Shown in pieces: positions 6,397-63,926 of a stretch of 64,000 nucleotides of DNA (within the stretch, counting starts at the first letter, position 1; each line of letters starts with the position of its first letter). Both the position numbers and the translations under genes were made by a program. The DNA comes from Candidatus Hinthialibacter antarcticus. GTDB lineage: Bacteria; Hinthialibacterota; Hinthialibacteria; Hinthialibacterales; Hinthialibacteraceae. The notes beneath the pieces are model-generated. The model saw only the letters and a list, made by a program, of their open reading frames with translations, did not search any database and was not told where the DNA came from. The stretch spans positions 186,001-250,000 of the forward strand of contig JAVCCE010000015.1 in the NCBI GenBank assembly GCA_030765645.1, written 5' to 3'.

Positions 6397-7062
6397 CTAA
6401 TTCGACAATGCATACAGAATAATATTCAGCGCCATATTCATGGCTTCATCGCGAACCTGCGGCGAATCTTGCGGATGCACGCCCTTGCTCTCGATGCCGT
6501 CGCCGATGTCGGTTTCATACGAATACATCACCACCAAACGGCCTTCGGAATAAATCCCCAAAACCTGCGGCGGCTTACCATCGTGTTCATGAATTTTGGG
6601 CGGGCCATTCTCAAACGGGTAGCATGAATGAAACACCGGGTGGTCATGCGGCAAGGGCGTCAGCGATGCGTCGGGAAACAGTTTCGCCATTTCCTCGCGA
6701 AACGACTCGTCGAGGCCGTAGTTGTCGTCCGCCCACAAAAAGCCGCCGCGTCGAAGATACTCGCGCAGGTTGGCCCGCTCGGCGTCGGAGAAACGCACGG
6801 TGCCGTGTCCGGTCATATAGACAATCGGGTACGAAAAAATATCGGAAGCGCCGGGCGCAATCACGGTTTCTTCGAGCGCGGTTTTCATGGCGAAGCGTTC
6901 GCGCAATTGCGTAAGCAAATTGGTCAGCGAAGTCGGGTCGCCGTACCAATCGCCGCCGCCGCTGTATTTGAGCCGCGCGAGGGTCAAATCGCCGGTCGGT
7001 TGCGCGAAGGCAACGCTTGCAGCGCAGAATAAAAAAATGACAAATACGGCAATCGGTTTCAT
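6397..7062 (-). CDS. DUF4159 domain protein, exported
   Basis: A 221-residue protein with a clear Sec signal peptide (MKPIAVFVIFLFCAASVAFA). The mature part is one DUF4159 domain: LARLKYSGGGDWYGDP, SYPIVYMTGHG, LREYLRRGGFLWADDNYG, LPHDHPVFHSCYPF and a C-terminal RDEAMNMALNIILYALS. The fold is related to class I glutamine amidotransferase-like domains, but the catalytic Cys/His are not conserved and the family has no proven activity. Longer DUF4159 proteins often sit next to MoxR/DUF58/von Willebrand genes. Here a DUF58 gene lies about 9.6 kb away on the other strand. An AAAGG ribosome-binding site sits five bases before the ATG. The ThpR gene ends 14 bp upstream, so the two may be cotranscribed. 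Confidence 0.85.
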   Translation of the reverse strand: MKPIAVFVIFLFCAASVAFAQPTGDLTLARLKYSGGGDWYGDPTSLTNLLTQLRERFAMKTALEETVIAPGASDIFSYPIVYMTGHGTVRFSDAERANLREYLRRGGFLWADDNYGLDESFREEMAKLFPDASLTPLPHDHPVFHSCYPFENGPPKIHEHDGKPPQVLGIYSEGRLVVMYSYETDIGDGIESKGVHPQDSPQVRDEAMNMALNIILYALSN

Positions 7063-7709: not shown

Positions 7710-9590
7710 TTGAAACTCTGGGCGCCGGTCTTATGGGGCGTTGTTCTGTTCGCGGCCTGGTTCGCGCAAGGCTTGCTTTTGGACGGGCGCCTGGATGCGG
7801 GGCTTCTGACTTACCTGGCTGCAAGCGCGGGGCTATGCGTTCTTATCAAGCCGCCCAAACAAAGCGAACTCAATCTCACACGCTCCCAAGAACGCCCCGC
7901 AATCATTTACGACGTCTCGACGCCATTGGTGTGCGCCGCAGCCGCATTGGGGCTATTCTCGTGCGGCGCCGCCGCGCTGGGCGTAATGCAAAACCCCGCA
8001 TGGTTTTGGGCGGCGCTGATTTGCTGGATTGCGTTTCTGGGTTTATGTCTGCTCGCGTCACATAAAATACTGCGCACTCTATTTTCAAACCTCTACAACG
8101 AAACCTGGGCGCCGCCCGCAGCGCTGGCGCTTATCACCCTCACGCTGGGTTTATTCAAACTAACGGACATCCCCGTAACCGTGCACGGCGACGAGGGCAT
8201 GGTGGGGCTGCACGCCCGCATGGCGTTGCATGGAAATATTGAAACCATATTTTCATCGTCGTGGTATTCGATCCCGCAATTGTTTTTCGCTATCCCGGCG
8301 ATGGTCATGTCAATGGTTGGCGACAACCTGTTCGGCCTGCGTTTTACCTCCACGCTTCTCGGCGTCGCCATTGTGTTGATGACCTATCGCGCGGCGCGTA
8401 GTTTTGGCGGTGAGGCCGCCGCGTTCGCCGCAGGGTTGATGCTGGCGGCAAACCAATGGTTTTTATATTTGATGCATAGCGGGGTGCAATATATTCAGGC
8501 GCCGTTTTTTCTGGTTGGGACGTTATTATTGTGGAACCGCGTCAATCAAACGCGCTCCATCGGGTTGTGCATTCTCAGCGGCGTTTGGCTGGGGCTGGCG
8601 ATGCAGTCGTATCAGGCCAGCCATATTCTCCCGCTGCTTTGGGCCTTGTCGCAACTGTGGCTGTTCGTCTGGCGGCGCATCGACGCCCGTTGGCTGGCGC
8701 TATCGCTATTGCTCCCGCTCGTATTTCTGTTACTCACATTGGGGCCGCTGCTCACGCATGATTTGTGTAAAATATCCCGCTTGGATTTTCTCAGTTCGCG
8801 CGCGCAATCCATTTTTATTTGGAACCAAGACGCCGAAACCAGCCATTCGACTCAACGCTGGCGCAACCAGGTCGAACGGGCGCTGTTGGCTCCGGTGCTC
8901 TATTTAGACCAGAGCGCGCAATTCGGCGGCGACGCGCCCATGTTAGACCACATCAGCGCGGCGCTGTTTGTACTCGCGGCGGGCGTCGCCCTGTTGCGTT
9001 TTTATGACCCACGCCGCGCAGCGCCGCTGCTTTGGACGCTCGCCATTATGTTTACAGGCGCGGCGCTACTCATGGACGCGCCCTTTTACCCGCGCCTGGC
9101 TGGTCTGGCGCCGCTGCTCTTTATTTTAATCGCCGGGTTATTTCACGAGATCGAAACTACTGCGCTCCACATGCGCCTGCAATGGCCCACGCGCATCGCC
9201 GTCGGCCTCTTGATCGCGTTTGCGCTGTCGTCGAATGTGCACGAATTTTTTGGGCGCTACGCCCACGAAACCAGCCCGCGCAGCATCCATTATCCGCAAA
9301 CGCAACTGGCGTATTGGATCCAACAACTGCCGCCTCAAACGCAAACGTACGTCTTTGCAGGCCCGCATTGCTCTGCGCAAAGCGGGACGGTGCGTTTTAT
9401 CGCAAATGGATTTCAGCCGCGCAACGTCGCGTCCGTTGATGAAATCCCATCTTTAGAACAAAGCGTGATTGTGGTGGACCCGACGAAGAAACAATTGTTG
9501 CCTGTGATTCAGAACCAATTTGCAGGGGGGAAAGTAACGCTGCACCGCAACCCGTTCGGCGACTTGATGTTTTATACGGTCTCGTTATGA
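7710..9590 (+). CDS. GT39-like (ArnT/PMT) membrane glycosyltransferase
   Basis: A 626-residue GT-C protein with about twelve hydrophobic segments. After four N-terminal helices, the first extracytoplasmic loop carries VHGDEGMVGLHARM near residue 157. The acidic DE pair is the hallmark catalytic or metal position of the PMT/ArnT family. The motif GDNLFGLRFTSTLLGVA follows. A soluble tail of about 100 residues ends the protein. The family moves sugars from polyprenyl-phosphate carriers onto lipid or protein. The start is a TTG at 7710, supported by GAGGTG just upstream; no in-frame ATG lies nearby. The gene converges with the GAF sensor gene and overlaps its end by six bases. Donor and acceptor are unknown. 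Confidence 0.82.
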   Translation: MKLWAPVLWGVVLFAAWFAQGLLLDGRLDAGLLTYLAASAGLCVLIKPPKQSELNLTRSQERPAIIYDVSTPLVCAAAALGLFSCGAAALGVMQNPAWFWAALICWIAFLGLCLLASHKILRTLFSNLYNETWAPPAALALITLTLGLFKLTDIPVTVHGDEGMVGLHARMALHGNIETIFSSSWYSIPQLFFAIPAMVMSMVGDNLFGLRFTSTLLGVAIVLMTYRAARSFGGEAAAFAAGLMLAANQWFLYLMHSGVQYIQAPFFLVGTLLLWNRVNQTRSIGLCILSGVWLGLAMQSYQASHILPLLWALSQLWLFVWRRIDARWLALSLLLPLVFLLLTLGPLLTHDLCKISRLDFLSSRAQSIFIWNQDAETSHSTQRWRNQVERALLAPVLYLDQSAQFGGDAPMLDHISAALFVLAAGVALLRFYDPRRAAPLLWTLAIMFTGAALLMDAPFYPRLAGLAPLLFILIAGLFHEIETTALHMRLQWPTRIAVGLLIAFALSSNVHEFFGRYAHETSPRSIHYPQTQLAYWIQQLPPQTQTYVFAGPHCSAQSGTVRFIANGFQPRNVASVDEIPSLEQSVIVVDPTKKQLLPVIQNQFAGGKVTLHRNPFGDLMFYTVSL

Positions 9591-11582
9591 CTTGGGGTTG
9601 AGTTCGTCTTCGACTTCGTCGTCTGACATCGCTTCGATGACGGTTTTTAACTGCTCGATGATCTCAGGATCATAACTGCGTTCATTGAAACGCGATAAGG
9701 TGCGATGGGCTTTCAGCAACCCTTGGCGTCCATCTTCAACCGAACGCCCGTTTCGGTTCAACAGCGCCGAGAACGCATACGCAATCGCGATGATGCGCGA
9801 CCCCAGCGGGATCTCGCGCCCTTTTAGCTTATCGGGATAGCCCTCGCCGCTCCACAGTTCATTGATGTGATAGACGATGCGTCCGGCGTCGTCGGGCAAG
9901 CCCAGGCTTTCGGTCATTCGCAGACTGAGTTGCGGCCCTTTTTGGCGCTGTTCTTCATAGGGGGTCTGGCTGCCGAAAGTGCGCAACATGCCCGATTCAT
10001 TCAGCAGCGCCGCATAGACGATGTTTTGAATATCCGACTCGCCCAGTTGTAGAAACGCCGCAATGCGCTGCGCCCAACGGCAGGTCGCCGCCGTCACGCC
10101 CGGCACGCCGGGGTCTTGGCTCTCAATCAAATTGGCGATGCTGGTCAGCGCCTTGATGGTGAAGATACGCTCGCCTTCATGAGTGCGGGCGTTTTTAATC
10201 GCCAATACCGCCTGCTCAGCGAAGGTCACCAGAATCTCCCGGTCGCCCGGGGTAAAGTCGCCCTTCTTGCCCGCTACGGTCACCACGCCTTCGATGTCGG
10301 TGTCAAACAGCGCGACCGACAAATACGACTCGGCGGGATAGGTCTCGCCGGTTGCAGGCCAGGGCGGCGTGTCACAGGCGGGGTGGAAGATGACGGGATT
10401 AAAGTTTTCCGCCACCCAACCGGCCAACCCTTCGCCGATTTTCGTTTCTTTTGCGCCCGTTTCATCTTCGTCCAACCCAAGTGAAACCTTGGGAAGCAGC
10501 ACCTCGCGCTCAGCGTCGCATAACATGATCGAGCAGCGTTGCGCCTGGAGCAGTTGCAGCGTTAATTGCCCGATTTTGGGTAATATTTCATTGGTGGTGA
10601 AACTGGACGAGATCAGACGGTGGACGATATGGATCGTTGAAAGCGCTTTGTGACGTTTTTTCATGCGTTCCAAGGTGAGCGCATAATCCAACGCAGCGGC
10701 GCCGCCGGTCGCGAGCAAACGAATCAGGTTTTGCTTCACCACTGACATGCTGCCCGAGGCGGGATCGAACGTCAAAAACATGCCGATCAAATAGGCATTG
10801 CGATAAAACGAAATCGCCCAGCAGTCGGCGTCTTCATCAATCGCGTGGTTCAGGGCCGACAACGCGTCGCGCAGCCATTTGCGAAGCGGGTCGTCGGCTT
10901 CCAGCAAGCGCAGCGAACTTTCTTCGCCGCCGTGAGGGGCGACGTAATCGTAACGAGTGACTTCAAGGTCGCGGCGCTTCAACAACCCGGCGGGGTAATT
11001 CTTGATATGGGCCGGATAAAATTCGCCGTCTTCGTTGATTAATAAAATGACGCTGCGGCTGGCGCCCAACGCCTGGCTCAACGCGTCCGACTGGCGTTGC
11101 AGCAGGCGGTCGAGTTCAACCAGCGTGATGGTTTCGCCCAGAATGGAATGGACTAGTTCAAGGTCGTCATGGTCTTCAAGCGCGCCCGACAACAACGCAA
11201 AATAGCCTTCGACCATGATAAGAATTTTTTCGAGCAGCGGCCGTTGTTCGGTGGGCAAGTTGCAAACGCCCAGTCCGCCCAAAAATTCATCGCGGTATTG
11301 AAAACGCACAAACCCCTGCAAGCGACCGTGGTCGCAAACCACAATGGAAGACTGGCGTTTGGCTTGTTCAGCCAGCGTTTGTTTGCAGAGAGAGCCGTCG
11401 CCAGCGTCTTCACAATAGAGCGGCTCGGTCTCGCCGGGAAACGGCGAACGGGTGAAAGTTTCGTCGGCGATCCACCATCGCGCTTCGGGCAAAATGACTT
11501 GCACGCCCTGCTGCAGCGCAATCACATACGGATTGGCGGCAATGTCTTGAAACCGGATGTGTTGTGAATAGGGTTCAGTCAT
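9585..11582 (-). CDS. PocR-like/GAF/degenerate HD-GYP sensor protein
   Basis: A 665-residue cytoplasmic protein. Residues 1-120 hold a Cys-containing segment (YCEDAGDGSLC, IVVCDHGRLQGFV, LGGLGVCNL) that resembles PocR-type ligand-binding domains. A GAF-like region spans about 155-310. A clear GAF domain spans about 330-475 (CSIMLCDAEREVLLPKVSLG, KIGEGLAGWVAENF). The C-terminus (about 490-640) aligns with HD-GYP domains through YHINELWSGEGYPDKLKG and IPLGSRIIAIAYAFSAL. The metal-binding HD dyad is replaced by NE in AALLNESGMLRTFG, so c-di-GMP hydrolysis is unlikely and a regulatory role is more probable. Its start overlaps the end of glnD by eight bases, so the two are translationally linked. 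Confidence 0.8.
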   Translation of the reverse strand: MTEPYSQHIRFQDIAANPYVIALQQGVQVILPEARWWIADETFTRSPFPGETEPLYCEDAGDGSLCKQTLAEQAKRQSSIVVCDHGRLQGFVRFQYRDEFLGGLGVCNLPTEQRPLLEKILIMVEGYFALLSGALEDHDDLELVHSILGETITLVELDRLLQRQSDALSQALGASRSVILLINEDGEFYPAHIKNYPAGLLKRRDLEVTRYDYVAPHGGEESSLRLLEADDPLRKWLRDALSALNHAIDEDADCWAISFYRNAYLIGMFLTFDPASGSMSVVKQNLIRLLATGGAAALDYALTLERMKKRHKALSTIHIVHRLISSSFTTNEILPKIGQLTLQLLQAQRCSIMLCDAEREVLLPKVSLGLDEDETGAKETKIGEGLAGWVAENFNPVIFHPACDTPPWPATGETYPAESYLSVALFDTDIEGVVTVAGKKGDFTPGDREILVTFAEQAVLAIKNARTHEGERIFTIKALTSIANLIESQDPGVPGVTAATCRWAQRIAAFLQLGESDIQNIVYAALLNESGMLRTFGSQTPYEEQRQKGPQLSLRMTESLGLPDDAGRIVYHINELWSGEGYPDKLKGREIPLGSRIIAIAYAFSALLNRNGRSVEDGRQGLLKAHRTLSRFNERSYDPEIIEQLKTVIEAMSDDEVEDELNPKS

Positions 11583-14211
11583 CTTGCAGCCCGTCGTTCG
11601 CTACTTTTTTGACCAATTGTTTCAGCTGTTCCAGCGTATCCGCATCTAGTATTTTTTCGCCGTTGCAGTCGGTGATGTAAAACACGTCAACCACCCGGTT
11701 GCCCTGGGTCACCAGGCGGGCGAAATCAATGTTCATATTTAATGAAGAAATGGCGGAAGACAAGCGCTGCAGCAGCCCGGATTGGTCAACGCAATATATT
11801 TCTAACACCGTGAAGCGCGCTGAGACGTCATTGAGCACCTTTACGCGGGTTTTGAAACTGCTGCGTCCAATCACCGATTTATTCATTGACACAGGGATCA
11901 CTGGCAGCTCGCCGTCTTTTCGCAAGAGCATCTGGATGCGCTCTTTTAATAGACGCTCCCGCATTTCATCAATTTCCGTGTTTCCGATTTCATCTCGAAT
12001 GACAATGTTATTGACGACCATGCCGTCGCGGCGGGTATTGAGATTGGCTTCAATGATGCCGAAATTTTCCAGCATGATGGCGGTGCAAATACGGTTAAAC
12101 AGACCGACCTTGTCGCGAAAAGCGATGAACAAATTACGGCAGGCCGCGTCGACGTGCGACTCCAACGTCACCACGGGAATCTCGCCGTCGAAATGGGCGA
12201 TGCCGCGAATATGCTGGGCAATGGTCTTGCGCGATTGGTGAATCATATAGCTGGGCGGGAAAAAATCGAGATGGTTTTGTACCAGTTCCCGGCTGAACTT
12301 GTCTGAGAGAGCGTCAATCAGCGATTCTTTTCGCGATTTTATTTTTTCTTGTTTGTCTTCGTCGGTCTCGCCTTCGCTTAAGAACACCTCTCGCGTAGAA
12401 CAATATAATTGCCAGAGTAGATTATTTTTCCATTCCGTCATTGAATCTTTCGAGACGGACTGAATGTCAACATAAGTGAGCAAATACATCATGTCGAGTT
12501 CAATTTGGTTTTCAAACGCATCACTGAAGTCGGCGTTTACGTCGGGGTCTGATAAGTCGCGGTGTTGGGCGATATGGCTCATTAAGAGGTGATATTTAAC
12601 GAGAAAGATCAGCTGGTTTTTCTGGCGTTCGGGCATACGAAGCCGTTTGCCGACTTCGGCGACGACGAAGGCGCCGCGGGTCGAGTGGTCTTCGTTGCTG
12701 CCCTTGCCGATGTCGTGCATCAACACCGCCAGCCGCACCACGTCGCGATGTTTACATTCCGCCCAGATGCGCGCCCGCTCACGGGCGAAACTCATGGAAT
12801 CTTCGCCGAAGGTTTCTAGATGCTGCAAGCACAACAGCAAGTGTTCATCCACCGTATATTTATGGGCGAGATCGTAGCGCACCAAAAACGAGATCGGTTT
12901 CCACTCAGGAAACAAGCGCTCGAGAACGCCGGTGTCGCGCATCAAGCGCACTTCGTTGTGAATGGGGCACGGCAGCGAGAAAAACCGCTGCAGCAGGCCC
13001 GCATTTTGGCGGTCTTGGCGAAAGGCTTCATCCAAGAGTTCCAGGTTATCGCGAATCGCCAGGACTGCTTCAGACGACATCACTTTTTGATGGACGGCAG
13101 CATGGACAAAGGCCATTAAAATACGCTGCGGGTTGTGTTCAAAGAAATGCAGGTTCGGCGGGATGTGCAGTACATTGCCCCGGGTATAAAACCCTTCCGA
13201 CAACTTTTTTTTGGGCTGGGGCAGGTAGCGTTCAAAGAACGTTCTGGGTTTGCACTTTTCCTGCATGATCTCAGCGAAATCGCGCAACGCTTTGGCATGG
13301 GTGAAGTAGTCGCGCATCATCTCTTCTTCAGAGAGATGGCCGTCGCGGTCAACATACCCAAGCCGGGTCGAGACTTCATGCTGCAGCGGCATGATGAGAA
13401 CGTCTTGTTCTTTTCCCGTCAAAAAGTGCAGGTCCGTCCGAAGCCGCCAGACGAATGTCAAGGCCGCGTCGACGCGTTCCATCAGTTCGTCGTCGATAAT
13501 ATGGCTGCGCTTGAGGTGCAACAGTTTGAGAGTATGCCCCACCATCAGCGACCCCAGCCAGAGGCCGAAGTGATAGTCGCGCAGCCCGCCGGGGCTTTCT
13601 TTGATGTTCGGTTCGGTAATGTTGATAGTGCTGCCAAAGCGTTTATGGCGTTTTTCGCGCTCGGTGATTTTTCCGCGAATATATTCTTTTCGATAGCGGC
13701 GGCTATTGCGCCACAGCAGTTCTTTAAATTCTTCAAACAGGCGCCAGTCGCCGGCGAGAAAGCGGCTCTCGCTCAATGCGCTCTGGCTATGGGGGTCGTT
13801 GTAGGCCATGTCGAGCGACTGACGAAAACTGCGGCAGCAATGCCCCACCTGAAAACCTAAATCAAACAGCGTCCGAAAGAACGATTTGACCAGTTCGCCT
13901 TGTTCGGCGGTGAGGGCGGACTGATATAAAAACAGGATGTCAACATCCGATTTGGGGTGCATCTCGCGGCGCCCGTAACCGCCTTGCGCCAGGAGAAGCA
14001 GGTTGGGCGGCATCTCCGACTGATTAAATCGCTTGTGGAGATGCTCCGATAACAGCTGAATCACCATCGAGTCGGTGGCGTTGGTGATTTCACGAACAAT
14101 ATCGCGAGAATCGTGACCGTGCTCGTGCATCTCGCGAATTTTGGACAAATTTTCTTTATATTGCCCGTAAATTTTTGATATTTCCGATTCAACCGGGGCG
14201 GCAAGAACCAT
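11575..14211 (-). CDS. glnD: [Protein-PII] uridylyltransferase/uridylyl-removing enzyme
   Basis: An 878-residue GlnD with all four domains. The nucleotidyltransferase motif is GGYGRREMHPKSDVDILFL near residue 100. It is followed by the GlnD linker (TEPNIKESPGGLRDYHFGLW), an HD domain (LAVLMHDIGKGSNEDHS near 495) and two C-terminal ACT domains (about 690-870; VGLFNRICTAIMLENFGIIE and QSGLLQRLSSAISSLNMNID). GlnD uridylylates PII when glutamine is low and removes UMP when glutamine is high; the ACT domains sense glutamine. No glnB or glnE lies in the window, but glnA does, 33 kb away. The length matches the E. coli enzyme (890 aa). The overlap with the downstream GAF/HD-GYP-like gene suggests a shared transcript. 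Confidence 0.95.
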   Translation of the reverse strand: MVLAAPVESEISKIYGQYKENLSKIREMHEHGHDSRDIVREITNATDSMVIQLLSEHLHKRFNQSEMPPNLLLLAQGGYGRREMHPKSDVDILFLYQSALTAEQGELVKSFFRTLFDLGFQVGHCCRSFRQSLDMAYNDPHSQSALSESRFLAGDWRLFEEFKELLWRNSRRYRKEYIRGKITEREKRHKRFGSTINITEPNIKESPGGLRDYHFGLWLGSLMVGHTLKLLHLKRSHIIDDELMERVDAALTFVWRLRTDLHFLTGKEQDVLIMPLQHEVSTRLGYVDRDGHLSEEEMMRDYFTHAKALRDFAEIMQEKCKPRTFFERYLPQPKKKLSEGFYTRGNVLHIPPNLHFFEHNPQRILMAFVHAAVHQKVMSSEAVLAIRDNLELLDEAFRQDRQNAGLLQRFFSLPCPIHNEVRLMRDTGVLERLFPEWKPISFLVRYDLAHKYTVDEHLLLCLQHLETFGEDSMSFARERARIWAECKHRDVVRLAVLMHDIGKGSNEDHSTRGAFVVAEVGKRLRMPERQKNQLIFLVKYHLLMSHIAQHRDLSDPDVNADFSDAFENQIELDMMYLLTYVDIQSVSKDSMTEWKNNLLWQLYCSTREVFLSEGETDEDKQEKIKSRKESLIDALSDKFSRELVQNHLDFFPPSYMIHQSRKTIAQHIRGIAHFDGEIPVVTLESHVDAACRNLFIAFRDKVGLFNRICTAIMLENFGIIEANLNTRRDGMVVNNIVIRDEIGNTEIDEMRERLLKERIQMLLRKDGELPVIPVSMNKSVIGRSSFKTRVKVLNDVSARFTVLEIYCVDQSGLLQRLSSAISSLNMNIDFARLVTQGNRVVDVFYITDCNGEKILDADTLEQLKQLVKKVANDGLQDD

Positions 14212-14596: not shown

Positions 14597-14779
14597 AATG
14601 TCATTGACTTAAGGGGTGGCAAGCCAAGGCGTCGCGAAGTGAAGGCAGCCCTTGATGCAACGAATCAAAAATATATCAGCTATGTAGGGGCGCAACGTGT
14701 TGCGCCCGAATCCCCCCTGGCGCTTCCAGCGCCGTCCCCCCTTAAAAAGGGGGGCTAAAAGTCTTAAGTCAATGACATT
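14597..14779 (+). repeat. Composite GC-rich palindromic element, copy 1
   Basis: About 183 bp bounded by a perfect 17-bp inverted repeat, AATGTCATTGACTTAAG at 14597 and its complement at 14763. Inside, in order, are a GGCGTCGCGAAG-type hairpin, a GGGGCGCAACGTGTTGCGCC hairpin, GGCGCTTCCAGCGCC, and CCCCCCTTAAAAAGGGGGG. A related copy in the opposite orientation lies at 42223-42377. No protein-coding content is visible. The right end runs in frame into the DUF559 remnant. Structure is typical of a non-autonomous (MITE-like) element. Confidence 0.75.
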
Positions 14780-15076
14780 GCACCCACAGAACGAATTCTC
14801 TGGCGACGATTGCGGCTCAGGAAAATGCTCAATCTGCATGTTCGCAGGCAGTGTCCTGCTGGAAACTATATTGCTGATTTTCTGATTCCCGATTGCAAGA
14901 TTGTGATTGAACTCGACGGCGAATCGCATGATTTTTCTGTTGAACACTACAAGCAACGAGATGAATTCTTTCAAAATAAAGGCTATCTTGTGCTCCGTTT
15001 CAAAAATGAAGATATACATGATCGGCTAGACGAGGTTCTTGAGGCCATTTACGCTGCGTGTAGCCAACAGGGCTAA
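14771..15076 (+). pseudogene. DUF559 endonuclease-fold protein, 5' end replaced by a repeat
   Basis: The frame is open from 14768. After a few codons inside the palindromic repeat it reads PTERILWRRLRLRKM, CPAGNYIADFLIPDCKIVIE, LDGESHDFSVEHYKQRDEFF and LVLRFKNEDIH. This is the compact DUF559 (Vsr-like, PD-(D/E)XK) domain, with the conserved VIELDG acidic strand. Intact family members carry ten to twenty more residues before the ERxLW motif, including their start. Here that part is repeat DNA and only a weak TTG at 14810 or upstream GTG/ATT codons are available. DUF559 proteins are short, mobile and of unproven function. Probably a remnant, but expression from an alternative start cannot be excluded. 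Confidence 0.7.
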
Positions 15077-31571: not shown

Positions 31572-31817
31572 TCATTCCTGATCGTCAAACGGCTCTTCGC
31601 TCCAGGTCTCACCTTGTTGTTCTTCTGTCAATTTATTTACGCGGGTCTCGACTTGATTCAGCCGTTCCGAGCATTTTTGAATGAGTTCCATGCCTTCGAT
31701 AAACGATTTTTCCATGGCTTCGAGCGACAGGCCGCCCTCGTCGAATTCTTCGATGATGGTTTCGAGCCGCGCCATGCCTTTTTCGTAATCGAAAGGCTTG
31801 TCAGTTTTTTTCGTCAT
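31572..31817 (-). CDS. xseB: Exodeoxyribonuclease VII small subunit
   Basis: An 81-residue protein starting MTKKTDKPFDYEKGMARLET, then IIEEFDEGGLSLEAMEKSFI and KCSERLNQVETRVNKL. This is the two-helix XseB fold with the conserved F-(E/D)-x-x-L-x-x-I-(V/I)-x-x-(L/F)-E pattern. The ATG at 31817 is chosen over longer upstream frames because it fits the family start and because the upstream extension lies inside xseA in another frame. The start overlaps the end of xseA by 17 bases. XseB subunits bind XseA to form the ATP-independent single-strand exonuclease VII. Confidence 0.95.
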   Translation of the reverse strand: MTKKTDKPFDYEKGMARLETIIEEFDEGGLSLEAMEKSFIEGMELIQKCSERLNQVETRVNKLTEEQQGETWSEEPFDDQE

Positions 31818-33096
31818 TGATCTCGACCTCTTTGACCTCGGCGCCAAGCGCGCCGTTCGCCATCTGCACCCGAATGCGTTCGCCGGGCTGTACTTCATTG
31901 GCGCGTAACACCGGGGTTCCATCTTGGCGGCGGCAGATACTATAGCCGCGTTCCATCATTTTATGCGGGTCATAGCTGCGCAAAAAGCCGGACAGCGTTT
32001 CGAGCGACTGGCGCTTTAATGCAAAACCATGGCGAAACACGCGTTGTAACGATGCGCGGCGGTCTTGCAGCGCCGCGCGTTTTTGTTGGATGGTCGATGT
32101 CATCCATTGTTGAAAGCGCTCTGCGCGGTCATCAAGACGCTGGCGCTCTTGAAACACCATCGCGCGGGGATGTCGTGTTTTCACTGCGTCACGCATGGCC
32201 TTGAGCCGTCCGCGTTCGCTTTGCAGCGCATTGGAAGCGTTTCGCAACAAGCGTTCGCGCGCGAGTTGCAGGCGCCCGCGATGGACGTCATAGATATCAC
32301 ATAAAACCTGCGCCGCCGCCGTTGGGGTCGCCGCGCGATAGTCCGCAGTGAAATCGGCGATACTGAAATCAATTTCATGCCCGACGCCGCTTATGATTGG
32401 AACCTTGGAAGCGGATATCGCTTTTGCGACGATTTCTTCATTGAAGGACCACAAATCTTCTAGACTGCCGCCGCCGCGTATCAGCGCAATCATATCGAAG
32501 CGCCCGCTTTGGTTGACCGCCTTAATCATGGCGGCGATTTCTTGCGCGGCTTCGGTCCCCTGTACGCGCACCGGACACACCGTCGCTTCAATCGGACATC
32601 GCGACAGCCGCAGGGTTCGGATAAAGTCTCGCACCGCCGCGCCCGTGGGCGAAGTAATCACCGCAACGCGTTTTGGCCAGTCGGGCAGCGACTGCTTGCG
32701 ATCCGGGTCAAACAGCCCTTCATCGGCGAGGCGGCGTTTGAGCGCTTCAAAGGCTTGCTGCAAGGCGCCCACGCCCGCCAGGCGGATCGAATTGACCACC
32801 AGCTGATATTGTCCGCGCGGCGGATAAAGCGTAATCGACCCGCCCGTCACCACTTCGCGTCCATCATGAAGATCAAGCCCGCTCCAGCGCGAGGCGGTGC
32901 TGCGCCAGGCGACGCAAGAGAGCACCGCGTTTTTGTCTTTCAGATTAAAATACACATGCCCGGACGGCGCTTTTTTGAAGTTGGAAATCTCGCCCTGCAC
33001 CTGCACCCACTCGTAGCGTTCTTCCAGCGACTGACGAATTTCGTCCGTCAATTCAGACACTGACAACGGCGGGCGCATGGGCGCTTCCTGGTTCAT
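31801..33096 (-). CDS. xseA: Exodeoxyribonuclease VII large subunit
   Basis: A 431-residue protein. The N-terminal OB fold shows PLSVSELTDEIRQSLEERYE, VQGEISNFKKAPSGHVYFNL and DKNAVLSCVAWR. The catalytic domain shows KRVAVITSPTGAAVRDFIRT, DMIALIRGGGSLEDLWSFNE and ISGVGHEIDFSIADFTADYR. The expected long helical region and a beta-rich C-terminus (MMERGYSICR) follow. It degrades single-stranded DNA from both ends and acts in repair. The start shares one base with the stop of the upstream YmdB gene, and its end overlaps xseB, so the three are translationally coupled. Confidence 0.96.
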   Translation of the reverse strand: MNQEAPMRPPLSVSELTDEIRQSLEERYEWVQVQGEISNFKKAPSGHVYFNLKDKNAVLSCVAWRSTASRWSGLDLHDGREVVTGGSITLYPPRGQYQLVVNSIRLAGVGALQQAFEALKRRLADEGLFDPDRKQSLPDWPKRVAVITSPTGAAVRDFIRTLRLSRCPIEATVCPVRVQGTEAAQEIAAMIKAVNQSGRFDMIALIRGGGSLEDLWSFNEEIVAKAISASKVPIISGVGHEIDFSIADFTADYRAATPTAAAQVLCDIYDVHRGRLQLARERLLRNASNALQSERGRLKAMRDAVKTRHPRAMVFQERQRLDDRAERFQQWMTSTIQQKRAALQDRRASLQRVFRHGFALKRQSLETLSGFLRSYDPHKMMERGYSICRRQDGTPVLRANEVQPGERIRVQMANGALGAEVKEVEINDEKN

Positions 33097-33929
33097 CAGG
33101 CGTGCTCCGTGTCGGGCAGTGCGCCGTTGGTTTGAATGCGCTCGATCTTAATGGCGCACCCGGTTTCTTTATTCACTTTGACCAGAACGCCCATGATTTT
33201 CACATTATCTTTGGCGATACGAAACGGTTGGCGGATACCGGACACAAAACTGGTCACCGCCGTGTCGATGTCCATACCAATAACCGAATCATGCGAACCG
33301 GTCATGCCCGCATCGGTGATGAAAGCGGTGCCGTTGGGCAGAATGCGTTCATCGGCGGTTTGTACGTGGGTATGCGTGCCGACGATGGCGCTATAGCGTC
33401 CGTCCATGCGCCACGCCATCGCGATTTTCTCGGAGGTCGATTCGCCGTGCAGATCCATAAAAAATACTTTGTGCGAACCATATTGATCGTACACTTCATC
33501 GGCGGCGTGAAACGGACAATTGATGGGGTTCATAAACAAGCGGCACAAAAACTGCGCAATCACTACCGGCGTTCCGTCGGAAGCTTTCACCACCGTCGCG
33601 CCGCGCCCGGGCGTTCCCTCCGGGTAATTGGCGGGCCGCACGATGCGCTTGTCATGGTCGATGAACGAAAAGATCGAGCGGTTGTCCCACGAGTGGTTGC
33701 CCAGGGTGATCGCGTCCACGCCGCTATCGTAAAATTGCTGCGCGACGTCGTAGGTCAGCCCTTTGCCTCCAGCGGAATTTTCTCCGTTGGCGATACACAA
33801 ATGGACGCCGTGCTGCGACCGTAATTGAGGCAATCGGCGGGCCAGGACTTCGCGCCCCGGCCGGCCAAATACGTCTCCAATAAACAGAATATTCAGGGCA
33901 TTCCCGTTATCATCTGCACTCACGCGCAT
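33096..33929 (-). CDS. YmdB-family metallophosphoesterase
   Basis: A 277-residue member of the TIGR00282/YmdB family. Metal-binding motifs are in order: NILFIGDVFGRPGREVL, CIANGENSAGGKGL, ITLGNHSWDNRSIFSFI, FFMDLHGESTSEKIAMAW and IVGTHTHVQTADERILPNGT. Family proteins hydrolyse 2',3'-cyclic AMP and related nucleotides and influence motility and biofilm decisions in Bacillus. The gene lies 24 bp after rny, an association widely conserved between RNase Y and YmdB and consistent with a shared role in RNA turnover. It abuts xseA. All expected Asp, Glu, Asn and His ligands are visible. Confidence 0.93.
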   Translation of the reverse strand: MRVSADDNGNALNILFIGDVFGRPGREVLARRLPQLRSQHGVHLCIANGENSAGGKGLTYDVAQQFYDSGVDAITLGNHSWDNRSIFSFIDHDKRIVRPANYPEGTPGRGATVVKASDGTPVVIAQFLCRLFMNPINCPFHAADEVYDQYGSHKVFFMDLHGESTSEKIAMAWRMDGRYSAIVGTHTHVQTADERILPNGTAFITDAGMTGSHDSVIGMDIDTAVTSFVSGIRQPFRIAKDNVKIMGVLVKVNKETGCAIKIERIQTNGALPDTEHA

Positions 33930-33953
33930 CTCCTAATCAATCGAGCGGCCATC

Positions 33954-35504
33954 CTAACGTGCATAGGCCACCGAGCGCGTTTCACGAATCACCGTCACTT
34001 TAATGTGGCCCGGATAATCCATTTCATCTTCGATTTTCTTAGAAATGTCATACGCCATTTTGACCGAACCCTGGTCGTCAATTTCATCCGGCAGCGCAAC
34101 AACGCGCACTTCGCGTCCGGCTTGAATCGCGAAGCATTTTTCCACGCCGGTGAATGAGGTAACGATGCTTTCGAGTTTTTCTAAGCGCTTGACGTAATGG
34201 TCGATGGTTTCGCGGCGGGCGCCGGGGCGCGCGGCGGAAATCGAGTCAGCAACCAGGACGAGGATCGCTTCAGCGGTTTCAAACTCCACGTCTTCGTGGT
34301 GGGCCGCGACCGCGTTCACGACTTCAGGCCGTTCGCCGAATTTGCGGCAGATGTCCGCGCCAATCGAGGCGTGAGTGCCGTCGCGTTCAAAGTCGACCGC
34401 CTTGCCCAAATCGTGCAGCAACGCGCCGCGCTTGGCGATTTCGGTATTGAGGCCGAGTTCCTCTGCCAGCGCCGTCGCCATAAAGGCGCATTCGCGGGCG
34501 TGATAGAGTTGGTTTTGTCCGTATGAATAGCGGTATTTCAGGCGTCCTAGCACTTTCACGATTTCTGGGTTCATATCGAGAATGCCTAAGTCAAAGAGAA
34601 CGCGCTCTGCGGCTTCGCGCATGTCTTCTTCCATATCTTTCATGACTTTTTCGTAGACTTCTTCGATGCGGCCCGGGTGGATGCGTCCGTCGGCGATGAG
34701 TTTTTCCAGCGTCTGGCGGGCGGCTTCGCGGCGGATGGGGTCAAAAGCCGACATGACCACGGTGTCGGGCGTATCGTCGATAATCAGGTTCACGCCGGTG
34801 ATGGTTTCAAAGGCGCGGATATTGCGTCCTTCACGGCCAATGATGCGGCCTTTGATTTCGTCTGACGGCAGCGCGACGGTTGATACGGTGGTTTCGTTGA
34901 CCACTTCGGTGCAGCCGCGCTGCATGGTTTCGACAACAATCCGGGCCGCCTCGCGCGACGCATTGGCTTTGGCGTCATCAAGAATCTCTTTGATGATGCG
35001 CGCCGCGTCGCGGCGAACGTCCGACTCCAGTGATTTCAACAGCAAGTCTTTGGCTTGTTCTGAGGTCAATCCTGAAATGCGCTCCAAGTGGGTGCGTTCT
35101 TCATGGATGAGTTGATCGAGTTCAGTTTCTTTCTTTTCGAGGTCTTTATCTTTCTTTTCTAAACGAACGGAGAGTTCCTGTGTTTCTTTTTCGCGTTTTT
35201 CAATTTGACCGCTGCGTTCTTCGACTTGCGTTTCACGACGGTCAAGTTTTTTCTCAATCTCGTTGAGTTCTTTCGTGCGTTTGCGTTCTTCTTCTTCCAT
35301 GCGGGTCTTGTCGCGAAGCATCTGCTCTTTGGCTTCAAACGCAGCTTCCTGACGGATCGTCGCCGCTTCTTTTTGCGCTTCTTCCCGGATACGGGCCCCC
35401 AATTGTTCCAGACTGCCAATTTCTTTGGCGATCATCGATTTATTCAGAACGAAGCCGATAATCAAACCGACTAGCAGCCCCACTACAGCAAGAATATATT
35501 CCAT
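33954..35504 (-). CDS. rny: Ribonuclease Y
   Basis: A 516-residue protein. One N-terminal membrane anchor (YILAVVGLLVGLIIGFVL) is followed by a long Glu/Lys-rich coiled coil to about residue 200. A KH domain follows (EIKGRIIGREGRNIRAFETI, GVNLIIDDTPDTVVMSAFDP). The HD domain carries RGALLHDLGKAVDFERDGTH and AVAAHHEDVEFETAEAILVL, and KMAYDISKKIEDEMDYPGHI closes the protein. RNase Y is the membrane-bound endonuclease that initiates mRNA decay in many bacteria lacking or supplementing RNase E. Length and order match the family. It starts 30 bp after nnr and precedes the YmdB gene. Confidence 0.97.
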   Translation of the reverse strand: MEYILAVVGLLVGLIIGFVLNKSMIAKEIGSLEQLGARIREEAQKEAATIRQEAAFEAKEQMLRDKTRMEEEERKRTKELNEIEKKLDRRETQVEERSGQIEKREKETQELSVRLEKKDKDLEKKETELDQLIHEERTHLERISGLTSEQAKDLLLKSLESDVRRDAARIIKEILDDAKANASREAARIVVETMQRGCTEVVNETTVSTVALPSDEIKGRIIGREGRNIRAFETITGVNLIIDDTPDTVVMSAFDPIRREAARQTLEKLIADGRIHPGRIEEVYEKVMKDMEEDMREAAERVLFDLGILDMNPEIVKVLGRLKYRYSYGQNQLYHARECAFMATALAEELGLNTEIAKRGALLHDLGKAVDFERDGTHASIGADICRKFGERPEVVNAVAAHHEDVEFETAEAILVLVADSISAARPGARRETIDHYVKRLEKLESIVTSFTGVEKCFAIQAGREVRVVALPDEIDDQGSVKMAYDISKKIEDEMDYPGHIKVTVIRETRSVAYAR

Positions 35505-62119: not shown

Positions 62120-63055
62120 TTACTTGGCTTCTTTATAAAACTCTTCCGCCACGGCGGCGATGCCTTCATCGTCGATACGATAGGCGCGGTAGAGATCAAC
62201 CTGGGTTCCTGACTGACCGAACTCGTCGAGAATGCCCCAGCGTTTCAGTTTCGCGGGCGCTTTTTCGGCGACCACTTCCGCTACAGATGAACCAAGCCCG
62301 CCGATGACGCTGTGGTCTTCGATCGTCATCAGGCATCCGGTTTCTTTGGCGCATTTGACGATCAGTTCTTCATCAATCGGCTTGATGGTGTGAATGTTGA
62401 GCACGCGGGCGTCGATGCCTTTTGACGCGAGGCGTTCTTTGGCTTTGACCGCATAACCGACCGTACCGCCGGTGGCGATGAGGGTCATATCTTTGCCGTC
62501 GGCGAGGGTGACGCCCTTGCCCATTTCAAACGTGTAATCGTCGCCGTTGACCTGGTCGAGTTTCTGGCGGGTGAGGCGCAGATAAACCGGGCCGTTGTGC
62601 TCAGCGGCGAACTGCACCGCTTGGCGTGTTTCAATATCATCGCCCGGCTGCAGCACCACAAAACCGGGAATCGAGCGCATCAGGCCAAGGTCTTCGAGGC
62701 CCATCTGGCTGTGTCCGTCTTCGCCAATGCCGATGCCGGCGTGGGTTCCGATGATCTTCACATTCGCCTGACTGTAACCGATTGACATACGGATGGTGTC
62801 AAAGCGTCCGGTGATGAAACACGCGAAGCTGCAAATAAACGGAACCTTGCCTGACAGCGCCATGCCTGCGGCGGCGCCGATCATGTTGGCTTCGGCGATG
62901 CCGAATTCATAAAACCGTTCGGGAAATTTTTCTGCAAAGTGACACGACATGGTTGACTTGCTGAGGTCAGCGTCCATCACCACGATGTCGGGATTTGTCG
63001 CGCCCAGTTCCGCCAGCGCGAGACCGAATGATTGTCTTGATGCTACGTTCGCCAT
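62120..63055 (-). CDS. Transketolase, C-terminal subunit
   Basis: A 311-residue protein covering the pyrimidine-binding and C-terminal domains of transketolase. FGLALAELGATNPDIVVMDA, FPERFYEFGIAEANMIGAAA (the Glu that activates thiamine diphosphate), IGTHAGIGIGEDGHSQMGLE and YLRLTRQKL are seen. The last domain has VLNIHTIKPIDEELIVKCAK and IEDHSVIGGLGSSVAEVVAE. It pairs with the N-terminal subunit encoded 37 bp upstream. Split transketolases are usual in many non-proteobacterial phyla and archaea. The enzyme moves two-carbon units in the pentose phosphate pathway. Ends at the terminator at 62060. Confidence 0.95.
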   Translation of the reverse strand: MANVASRQSFGLALAELGATNPDIVVMDADLSKSTMSCHFAEKFPERFYEFGIAEANMIGAAAGMALSGKVPFICSFACFITGRFDTIRMSIGYSQANVKIIGTHAGIGIGEDGHSQMGLEDLGLMRSIPGFVVLQPGDDIETRQAVQFAAEHNGPVYLRLTRQKLDQVNGDDYTFEMGKGVTLADGKDMTLIATGGTVGYAVKAKERLASKGIDARVLNIHTIKPIDEELIVKCAKETGCLMTIEDHSVIGGLGSSVAEVVAEKAPAKLKRWGILDEFGQSGTQVDLYRAYRIDDEGIAAVAEEFYKEAK

Positions 63056-63092
63056 AATACCCTTCCAATGATGAGAGAATGTCTAATCCGTC

Positions 63093-63926
63093 TTACGCGG
63101 CGTTGAGTTCTTTCAGCGCCTTTTCACATTGCTCGGCGGTTGGAGCGACGCCGTGCCAGGTATAATCGTTTTCCATAAATGAAACGCCCTTGCCCTTGAT
63201 GGTCTTCGCCCAAATCAAGGTGGGGCGGTCGGTGACGGCTTTGGCTTCGTCCAAGGCGCGCAACACCTGTTCCATGTCATGGCCGTTGATGGCGATGACG
63301 TGCCAGTTAAAGGCGCGGAACTTGGCGTCAATCGGGTCAAGCGGCATGACCTTGTCGACATAACCGTCAATTTGTCCGTTATTGTTGTCTAAAATCGCGG
63401 TCAGGTTTCCGGTTTTGTATTTGCCCGCCGCCATGATGGCTTCCCACACTTGGCCCTCTTGGGTTTCGCCGTCGCCGAGTACGCAAAACACCCGCCAGTC
63501 GGCTTTGTCCATTTTGGCTGCGAGCGCCATGCCCAGCGCAATCGACAATCCCTGGCCGAGAGACCCGGTCGAGGCTTCGATGGACGGCATACGGACGCAG
63601 TCGGGGTGGCCCTGAAAATCGGAGCCGTAGGTGCGCAGCGTGTCGAGTTGGCTGCGGTCGAGGTAGCCCGCTTGCGCCAGCGCCGAATACCACGCCGGAA
63701 TGCAATGGCCTTTCGACATAATGAAGCGGTCGCGGCCTTCCCATTCCGGGTTGCTGACGTCGTGGTTCATCACGCCGAACAACAACGCAGCGGTAATGTC
63801 TGCGACTGAGAGCGAGCCGCCGGGGTGGCCTGATTTCGCTGCAGTAATCATTTTGAGGCTGTCAATGCGAATTTGTCGCGCATATTCTTTGAGCGCGTTG
63901 ATTTCGCGCGTCAGTTGAAACGTCAT
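63093..63926 (-). CDS. Transketolase, N-terminal subunit
   Basis: A 277-residue protein with the thiamine-diphosphate-binding half. IRIDSLKMITAAKSGHPGGS, RDRFIMSKGHCIPAWYSALA, GSDFQGHPDCVRMPSIEAST and GSLGQGLSIALGMALAAKM are present. The TPP motif runs VLGDGETQEGQVWEAIMAAG to LTAILDNNNGQIDG. GKGVSFMENDYTWHGVAP ends the domain. It forms the active enzyme with the downstream subunit. GGAGC lies seven bases before the ATG. The remaining bases up to 64000 contain only the beginning of the upstream region. Confidence 0.96.
   Translation of the reverse strand: MTFQLTREINALKEYARQIRIDSLKMITAAKSGHPGGSLSVADITAALLFGVMNHDVSNPEWEGRDRFIMSKGHCIPAWYSALAQAGYLDRSQLDTLRTYGSDFQGHPDCVRMPSIEASTGSLGQGLSIALGMALAAKMDKADWRVFCVLGDGETQEGQVWEAIMAAGKYKTGNLTAILDNNNGQIDGYVDKVMPLDPIDAKFRAFNWHVIAINGHDMEQVLRALDEAKAVTDRPTLIWAKTIKGKGVSFMENDYTWHGVAPTAEQCEKALKELNAA

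Follow-up and report, generated by a model that had tools for sequence, protein, structure and literature searches.

A degenerate GAF/HD-GYP protein encoded directly downstream of glnD in Candidatus Hinthialibacter antarcticus and its order

What does a GAF/HD-GYP protein do when its gene starts within the end of glnD? The locus that raises this question lies in a window of 64,000 nucleotides from Candidatus Hinthialibacter antarcticus (contig JAVCCE010000015.1, positions 186,001 to 250,000; coordinates below are those of the window), where glnD is directly followed by an open reading frame (ORF) at 9585-11582, here called the sensor gene. The original prediction, made from the letters of the DNA, read it as a catalytically dead HD-GYP sensor that is translationally coupled to glnD and links nitrogen signalling to a further signal. 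The ORF was confirmed with 665 codons and an ATG start, and it lies on the minus strand, which had not been stated. Our analysis shows that the gene encodes a real, well-conserved degenerate GAF/HD-GYP protein, and the 'dead' part of the description is solid. We favour a non-catalytic GAF sensor that would act by contact with another protein, whichever partner this is (probability about 0.6). A link of the sensor to nitrogen signalling is possible and is put forward as a testable guess.

The sensor was compared in 14 genomes of the phylum that belong to five families (f1 to f5), G000 being the genome of the window. The order consists of f1 (six genomes) and f2 (three genomes), and outside the order stand G001 (f3), G010 (f4) and G011, G012 and G013 (f5). 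Domain layout, metal-site loss and operon position in the order were computed, not inferred. The sensor was found in 14/14 genomes. A search of G000 returned one full-length copy and three further matches that were partial and weak.

The catalytic state was read from the metal site. Pfam calls a GAF domain at residues 331-462 and HD_5 at 482-641 (63.2 bits, cut-off 27.2), with no other GAF. The predicted replacement of the HD dyad by NE at residues 528-529 and the GEGYP stretch were both seen in the sequence and the alignment. When the domain was aligned to PmGH (PDB 4mcw), 0/8 metal ligands were retained (E185G, H189V, H221N, D222E, H250G, H276I, H277N, D305Y). None of the five histidine ligand positions holds a histidine in the sensor. 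The residue letters at the PmGH ligand positions were verified by script. The 'catalytically dead' assignment is therefore well supported, and on stronger grounds than the dyad, as all eight positions are changed and not two. Judged from its residues, the HD-GYP domain is very probably non-catalytic.

An active phosphodiesterase of cyclic diguanosine monophosphate (c-di-GMP) with an unusual metal site would fit the HD_5 match above its cut-off and the GYP triplet, and an enzymatic origin of the family is possible, considering that the G010 homologue keeps 7/8 ligands. This candidate was rejected on the 0/8 ligands of the sensor and its lack of histidine at all five positions, and we regard it as very improbable. 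The G010 homologue itself (locus L057, 4706-6400) may still be an enzyme and offers a natural counterpart for timing the loss of activity.

The ligands were then counted in the homologues, where the G007 sensor, truncated at a contig end, was excluded from all metal-ligand counts. After the seven ligands of G010, five are kept in G001 and G013, three in G003 and G005, two in G002, G004 and G011, one in G006 and G012 and none in G000, G008 and G009. The eight complete glnD-paired proteins thus keep 0-3 of the 8 ligands. According to the original prediction, homologues with an intact HD dyad would mean that the copy in the window is simply mutated. An intact dyad was indeed found in G002, G003, G004 and G005, with HE in G006 and CR in f2. 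However, most of the remaining ligands are gone from these four of the six f1 members, and the domain is therefore degenerate throughout f1. The NE of G000 looks, from the sequences, like a late step of decay, the other histidines having been lost too, and the HD dyad alone is a poor test of activity. The GYP triplet is also variable: G-Y-P is present in G000, G004 and G006, and the other three f1 members have F, H or R in the middle.

The fold of the HD region is kept. VIA gave Z scores of 18-24 to solved HD-GYP proteins, and this region of the AlphaFold2 model has a predicted local distance difference test score (pLDDT) mostly of 70-92. The mean identity within f1 is 64% for the second GAF domain (GAF2), 56% for the HD region, 48% for the first GAF domain (GAF1) and 38% for the N-terminal domain (per-domain identities leave out G001, G007 and G010). 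All six f1 members share an f1-specific consensus, Y-H-[VI]-[NH]-E, in the HD region. Taken together, the 56% identity, the preserved fold and the family-specific motif are what a refunctioned pseudoenzyme looks like, rather than a freely drifting relic.

A pseudoenzyme of this type might still bind the dinucleotide. In DvhD of Desulfovibrio vulgaris, SQ replaces HD and MN replaces HH, and the protein does not cleave c-di-GMP but uses its binding as a switch (PMC13090378). The sensor carries NE and IN at the same places, and GGDEF proteins are encoded in the genome; it could likewise be a non-catalytic receptor that brings c-di-GMP levels to bear on GlnD. The 12 contact residues of the canonical and bridging sites, as named for DvhD in that paper, were examined for this. 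The sensor keeps 1/12, the other f1 members 0-2, the f2 proteins 1 (two of the three members examined) and those of f5 0-1, compared with 4/12 in G001, 5/12 in G010 and 7/12 in PmGH. In f1, the loop that bears several of the contacts is shortened. By these residues the sensor is probably not a c-di-GMP receptor of the DvhD mode, and a DvhD-like control of GlnD was disfavoured on the 1/12 contacts as quite improbable.

The comparison with solved and classified relatives puts the non-catalytic contact sensor in context. DvhD (PDB 9RBZ/9RC0; VIA Z 19.4, 180 residues, 3.0 Å) shares the HD-GYP fold without metal ligands, the helical stalk to a sensor module and the non-catalytic character; it differs in that DvhD is membrane-bound, carries dCache and PAS domains, binds c-di-GMP through residues that the sensor mostly lacks, and controls a periplasmic protease (PMC13090378). 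The best match of the whole region was PmGH of Persephonella marina (PDB 4MCW; VIA Z 23.8, root-mean-square deviation (rmsd) 6.5 Å, 333 aligned), in which a GAF domain also precedes the HD-GYP domain, but PmGH, an active tri-iron phosphodiesterase, possesses all 8 ligands where the sensor has 0/8. V-cGAP3 of Vibrio cholerae (PDB 5Z7C) matched with its residues 0-233 (VIA Z 20.7, rmsd 2.5 Å, 177 residues). This half, the first HD domain of V-cGAP3, is itself degenerate and stands in tandem with an active HD-GYP in one protein, whereas the sensor has no active HD-GYP fused to it. Among NCBIfam families, the NosR family (NF053512) was the best match of the sensor domain with 78.8 bits, far below the curated cut-off of 400, and the sensor falls outside it. 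NosR proteins resemble the sensor in their degenerate HD-GYP output and differ by a receiver domain and a place in a nitric-oxide operon (PMC12570481).

The sensory part was assigned from the other end of the protein. The predicted GAF domains were recovered, one as the Pfam GAF match and a second at about residues 155-300, where hhalign compared GAF1 with GAF2 at a probability of 95.9% and the G011 homologue has a Pfam GAF_3 match. The N-terminal segment had been called Cys-rich and PocR-like, and this was not confirmed. Pfam found no PocR (PF10114) match in the sensor, and a PocR scan of the whole genome missed the sensor gene. Ten PocR domains were collected from 7 genomes of the phylum, and hhalign gave the N-terminal domain a probability of 11% against them. 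A rerun with other settings scored 17.5 for this pair, 17.2 for the best of 60 column shuffles and 18.1 for GAF1 against PocR, so the test separates PocR neither from chance nor from GAF. A weak alignment places three sensor cysteines opposite the invariant three of PocR, but G006, which at about 65% identity is the nearest relative, lacks cysteines throughout the domain. The N-terminal alignment takes in G011 and G012 and leaves out G001, G010 and G013, whose starts are cut or unclear. A PocR identity was set aside as unsupported, on the missing Pfam match, the hhalign scores scarcely above shuffles and the cysteine-free G006 domain.

Folded alone with AlphaFold2, the N-terminal module reached a pLDDT of 83.9 and a predicted template modelling score (pTM) of 0.78. 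The model resembles the GAF domain of DhaR, IclR effector domains and other GAF-like folds (Foldseek, VIA), with Z scores of about 8-9 that are near the tool's warning level. On the basis of this model, the segment is better called GAF-like than Cys-rich PocR-like. A model of the whole sensor, built from 14 homologues (mean pLDDT 80.2, pTM 0.45), is good for the domains and not for their relative placement. It contains three alpha-beta modules, long helices at 111-153, 281-326 and 445-488, and then the helical HD domain.

The protein would thus be a soluble sensor in which long helices connect three successive GAF-like modules, ending in a C-terminal HD-GYP pseudoenzyme. A small-molecule ligand bound to a GAF module would move the helical stalks in a dimer, a shift that the pseudo-HD-GYP end would relay by contact with another protein. 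Dimerisation and protein contact are suggested by the solved relatives. In the order, the contacted partner may be GlnD or its substrate PII, which is the weaker step of this model.

The partner question was addressed by the gene order. The upstream gene is a full-length glnD, as had been proposed (TIGR01693, 605 bits, cut-off 519.4), and the only full-length one in G000, where two other TIGR01693 rows are short and sub-threshold. The eight-base overlap with the sensor gene was reproduced at 11575-11582. In f1 the sensor start overlaps the glnD end in 6/6 genomes by 4-20 bp, depending on the choice of start in G003. In the three f2 genomes, however, the sensor follows glnD after 136, 300 and 305 bp, which confines the overlap, and with it the proposed translational coupling, to f1. 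No clear Shine-Dalgarno sequence was found in the 24 bases before the sensor start (nine genomes) or before glnD (five genomes), so the strength of the ribosome-binding site is uninformative on coupling.

The sensor lies directly downstream of glnD and on the same strand in 9/9 genomes of the order. The conservation of the gene pair, which the original prediction had named among its checks, thus holds in the order but not in the genomes outside it that could be judged. Outside the order the sensor is not beside glnD in four of the five genomes (G001, G011, G012, G013), in which the two genes are on different contigs and other genes stand downstream of glnD. These are all of the decidable genomes (4/4): the count leaves out G010, whose sensor lies at the end of its contig and for which the search gave no full glnD. 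With the GlnD of the window as the query, matches were obtained in 13/14 genomes, and G010 had a short weak match only. In the tree, the nine glnD-paired proteins form one side of a branch with 100/100 support, with f1 and f2 as sister groups; support for the position of G010 is weak (76/71), and G001 sits on a long branch. A nitrogen theme was not found among the neighbours of the sensor or glnD in the families outside the order. The sensor has YebC as a neighbour in G001, lies near an S41 peptidase in G013 and is accompanied in G010 by genes for a glycosyltransferase and a tRNA-ribosyltransferase. On the glnD side the neighbours include a Phosphodiest (PF01663) gene, which glnD follows in G012 and G013 (loci L064 and L063), and a related gene downstream of glnD in G011 and G013 (L065 and L063) that is DprA-like by Pfam in G013.

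For a control, six other pairs from the window were followed: RNase Y/TIGR00282, TIGR00282/xseA, the two transketolase halves, a lytic transglycosylase with its upstream gene, and two others. Row 15855, not being directly adjacent, and the convergent gene at 7710 are outside these six controls; of the control neighbours, 60927 and 18955 may not be genuine operon partners. Four of the six pairs were kept in G009 (f2), and the same four in G001 (f3), where the glnD-sensor pair is broken. In the f5 loci, 0/4 of the pairs examined there were kept, the G012 locus for one query being short (1,987 bases) and the f5 loci of the third query being left out. RNase Y, the TIGR00282 metallophosphoesterase and xseA stand in a row on the minus strand at 31801-35504, with both adjacencies kept in G009 and G001. 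At 62120-63926 the transketolase is split into two adjacent genes for its N- and C-terminal halves, an adjacency seen in 9/12 relatives' loci.

Several of these results weigh against a special tie of the sensor to GlnD. The adjacency across f1 and f2 is ordinary operon conservation; as four of the six controls are kept equally far or farther, co-location alone is no argument for a special functional link. The f2 spacing and the separation outside the order point the same way. GlnD is complete and has its own ACT sensor regions (Pfam), so it misses no function for which a partner would be needed. In f5, too, metal ligands have been lost with sensor and glnD unlinked, so the loss is not tied to the pairing.

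The adjacency may then be incidental, the shared transcript being an operon left unbroken within the order and the sensor acting elsewhere, for instance by contacting other c-di-GMP enzymes. The genome has eight GGDEF and six HD_5 matches, and degenerate HD-GYP proteins have been proposed to regulate active c-di-GMP enzymes (PMC12570481). Yet the surrounding genes differ from f1 to f2, and sensor and glnD are the only clusters that the two neighbourhoods have in common; the overlap is kept throughout f1 though the flanks differ, as in G005, where the pair persists despite an altered downstream flank. We give an incidental adjacency close to an even chance. It contests the step to GlnD or PII, not a non-catalytic GAF sensor that works by contact.

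For the contact sensor, GlnD or PII is the natural candidate partner in the order, since PII genes were found in 13/14 genomes and the copies read keep the T-loop tyrosine. This tyrosine is the one that is uridylylated in PII of E. coli. Such a partner would explain why the sensor and glnD genes are made together. From the gene order within the order, an action of the sensor on GlnD or PII can be proposed tentatively. The more specific case, in which the sensor was recruited in one order as a dedicated GlnD regulator and a GAF ligand alters PII uridylylation independently of glutamine, is unlikely as it stands. The locus resembles known GlnD-PII signalling in its full-length glnD directly upstream of the sensor and in a genomic PII with the target tyrosine. 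It differs in the partner: the open-access literature searched yielded neither a GlnD-HD-GYP pair nor a comparable sensor partner for GlnD.

The relation could also be reversed, with the sensor as a target of PII and not a regulator of GlnD: PII modified by GlnD would bind the sensor and tune its downstream output. The presence of PII genes in nearly all genomes would allow this; they lie, however, on contigs other than that of the sensor in all 13 genomes that have PII. We also know of no PII-binding motif for such proteins. In Azospirillum, PII was shown to bind c-di-GMP enzymes (PMC7646526), so that cross-talk between nitrogen and c-di-GMP has a precedent, though in the other direction. A PII target is improbable.

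Table 1. Coordinates of the sensor gene, its domains and glnD in the window.
Feature	Position	Strand	Basis
Sensor gene, 665 aa, GAF-like + GAF + GAF + degenerate HD-GYP	9585..11582	-	ORF, Pfam, full-length homologues in phylum
N-terminal GAF-like domain, residues 1-139, lineage-specific, poorly conserved, variable cysteines	11166..11582	-	AlphaFold2, Foldseek, VIA, alignment
First GAF domain (GAF1), ~residues 155-300	10683..11120	-	hhalign vs GAF2, Pfam GAF_3 on G011 homologue, model
Second GAF domain (GAF2), residues 331-462, best conserved part	10197..10592	-	Pfam GAF E=5.1e-15
Degenerate HD-GYP domain, residues 482-641	9660..10139	-	Pfam HD_5 E=3.3e-17, VIA
NE codons, residues 528-529, where the HD dyad stands in enzymes	9996..10001	-	Sequence and alignment to PDB 4mcw
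IN codons, residues 573-574, replacing the second metal-binding HH pair	9861..9866	-	Alignment to PDB 4mcw
glnD, [protein-PII] uridylyltransferase, 878 aa, nucleotidyltransferase + HD + ACT regions	11575..14211	-	TIGR01693, Pfam
Overlap of glnD 3' end and sensor 5' end, 8 bp	11575..11582	-	ORF coordinates, sequence

Two further reading frames lie close to the locus. Upstream of glnD and on the same strand, a 136-amino acid ORF at 14609-15019 is not matched by Pfam, the other neighbourhoods compared contain no ORF related to it, and it may not be a gene. At 6397-7062 a 221-amino acid DUF4159 protein is encoded (PF13709, E=3.3e-64).

For the family, the sensor proteins form a graded series of HD-GYP metal-site loss, from 7/8 ligands in G010 to 0-5 of 8 in the others. 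They also caution against reading activity from an intact HD pair, which four members keep though most of their other ligands are gone. If it is true that the sensor acts on GlnD, it would be a new, second input into PII signalling beside the classical nitrogen-status switch, and an HD-GYP enzyme would have become a regulatory subunit independent of c-di-GMP.

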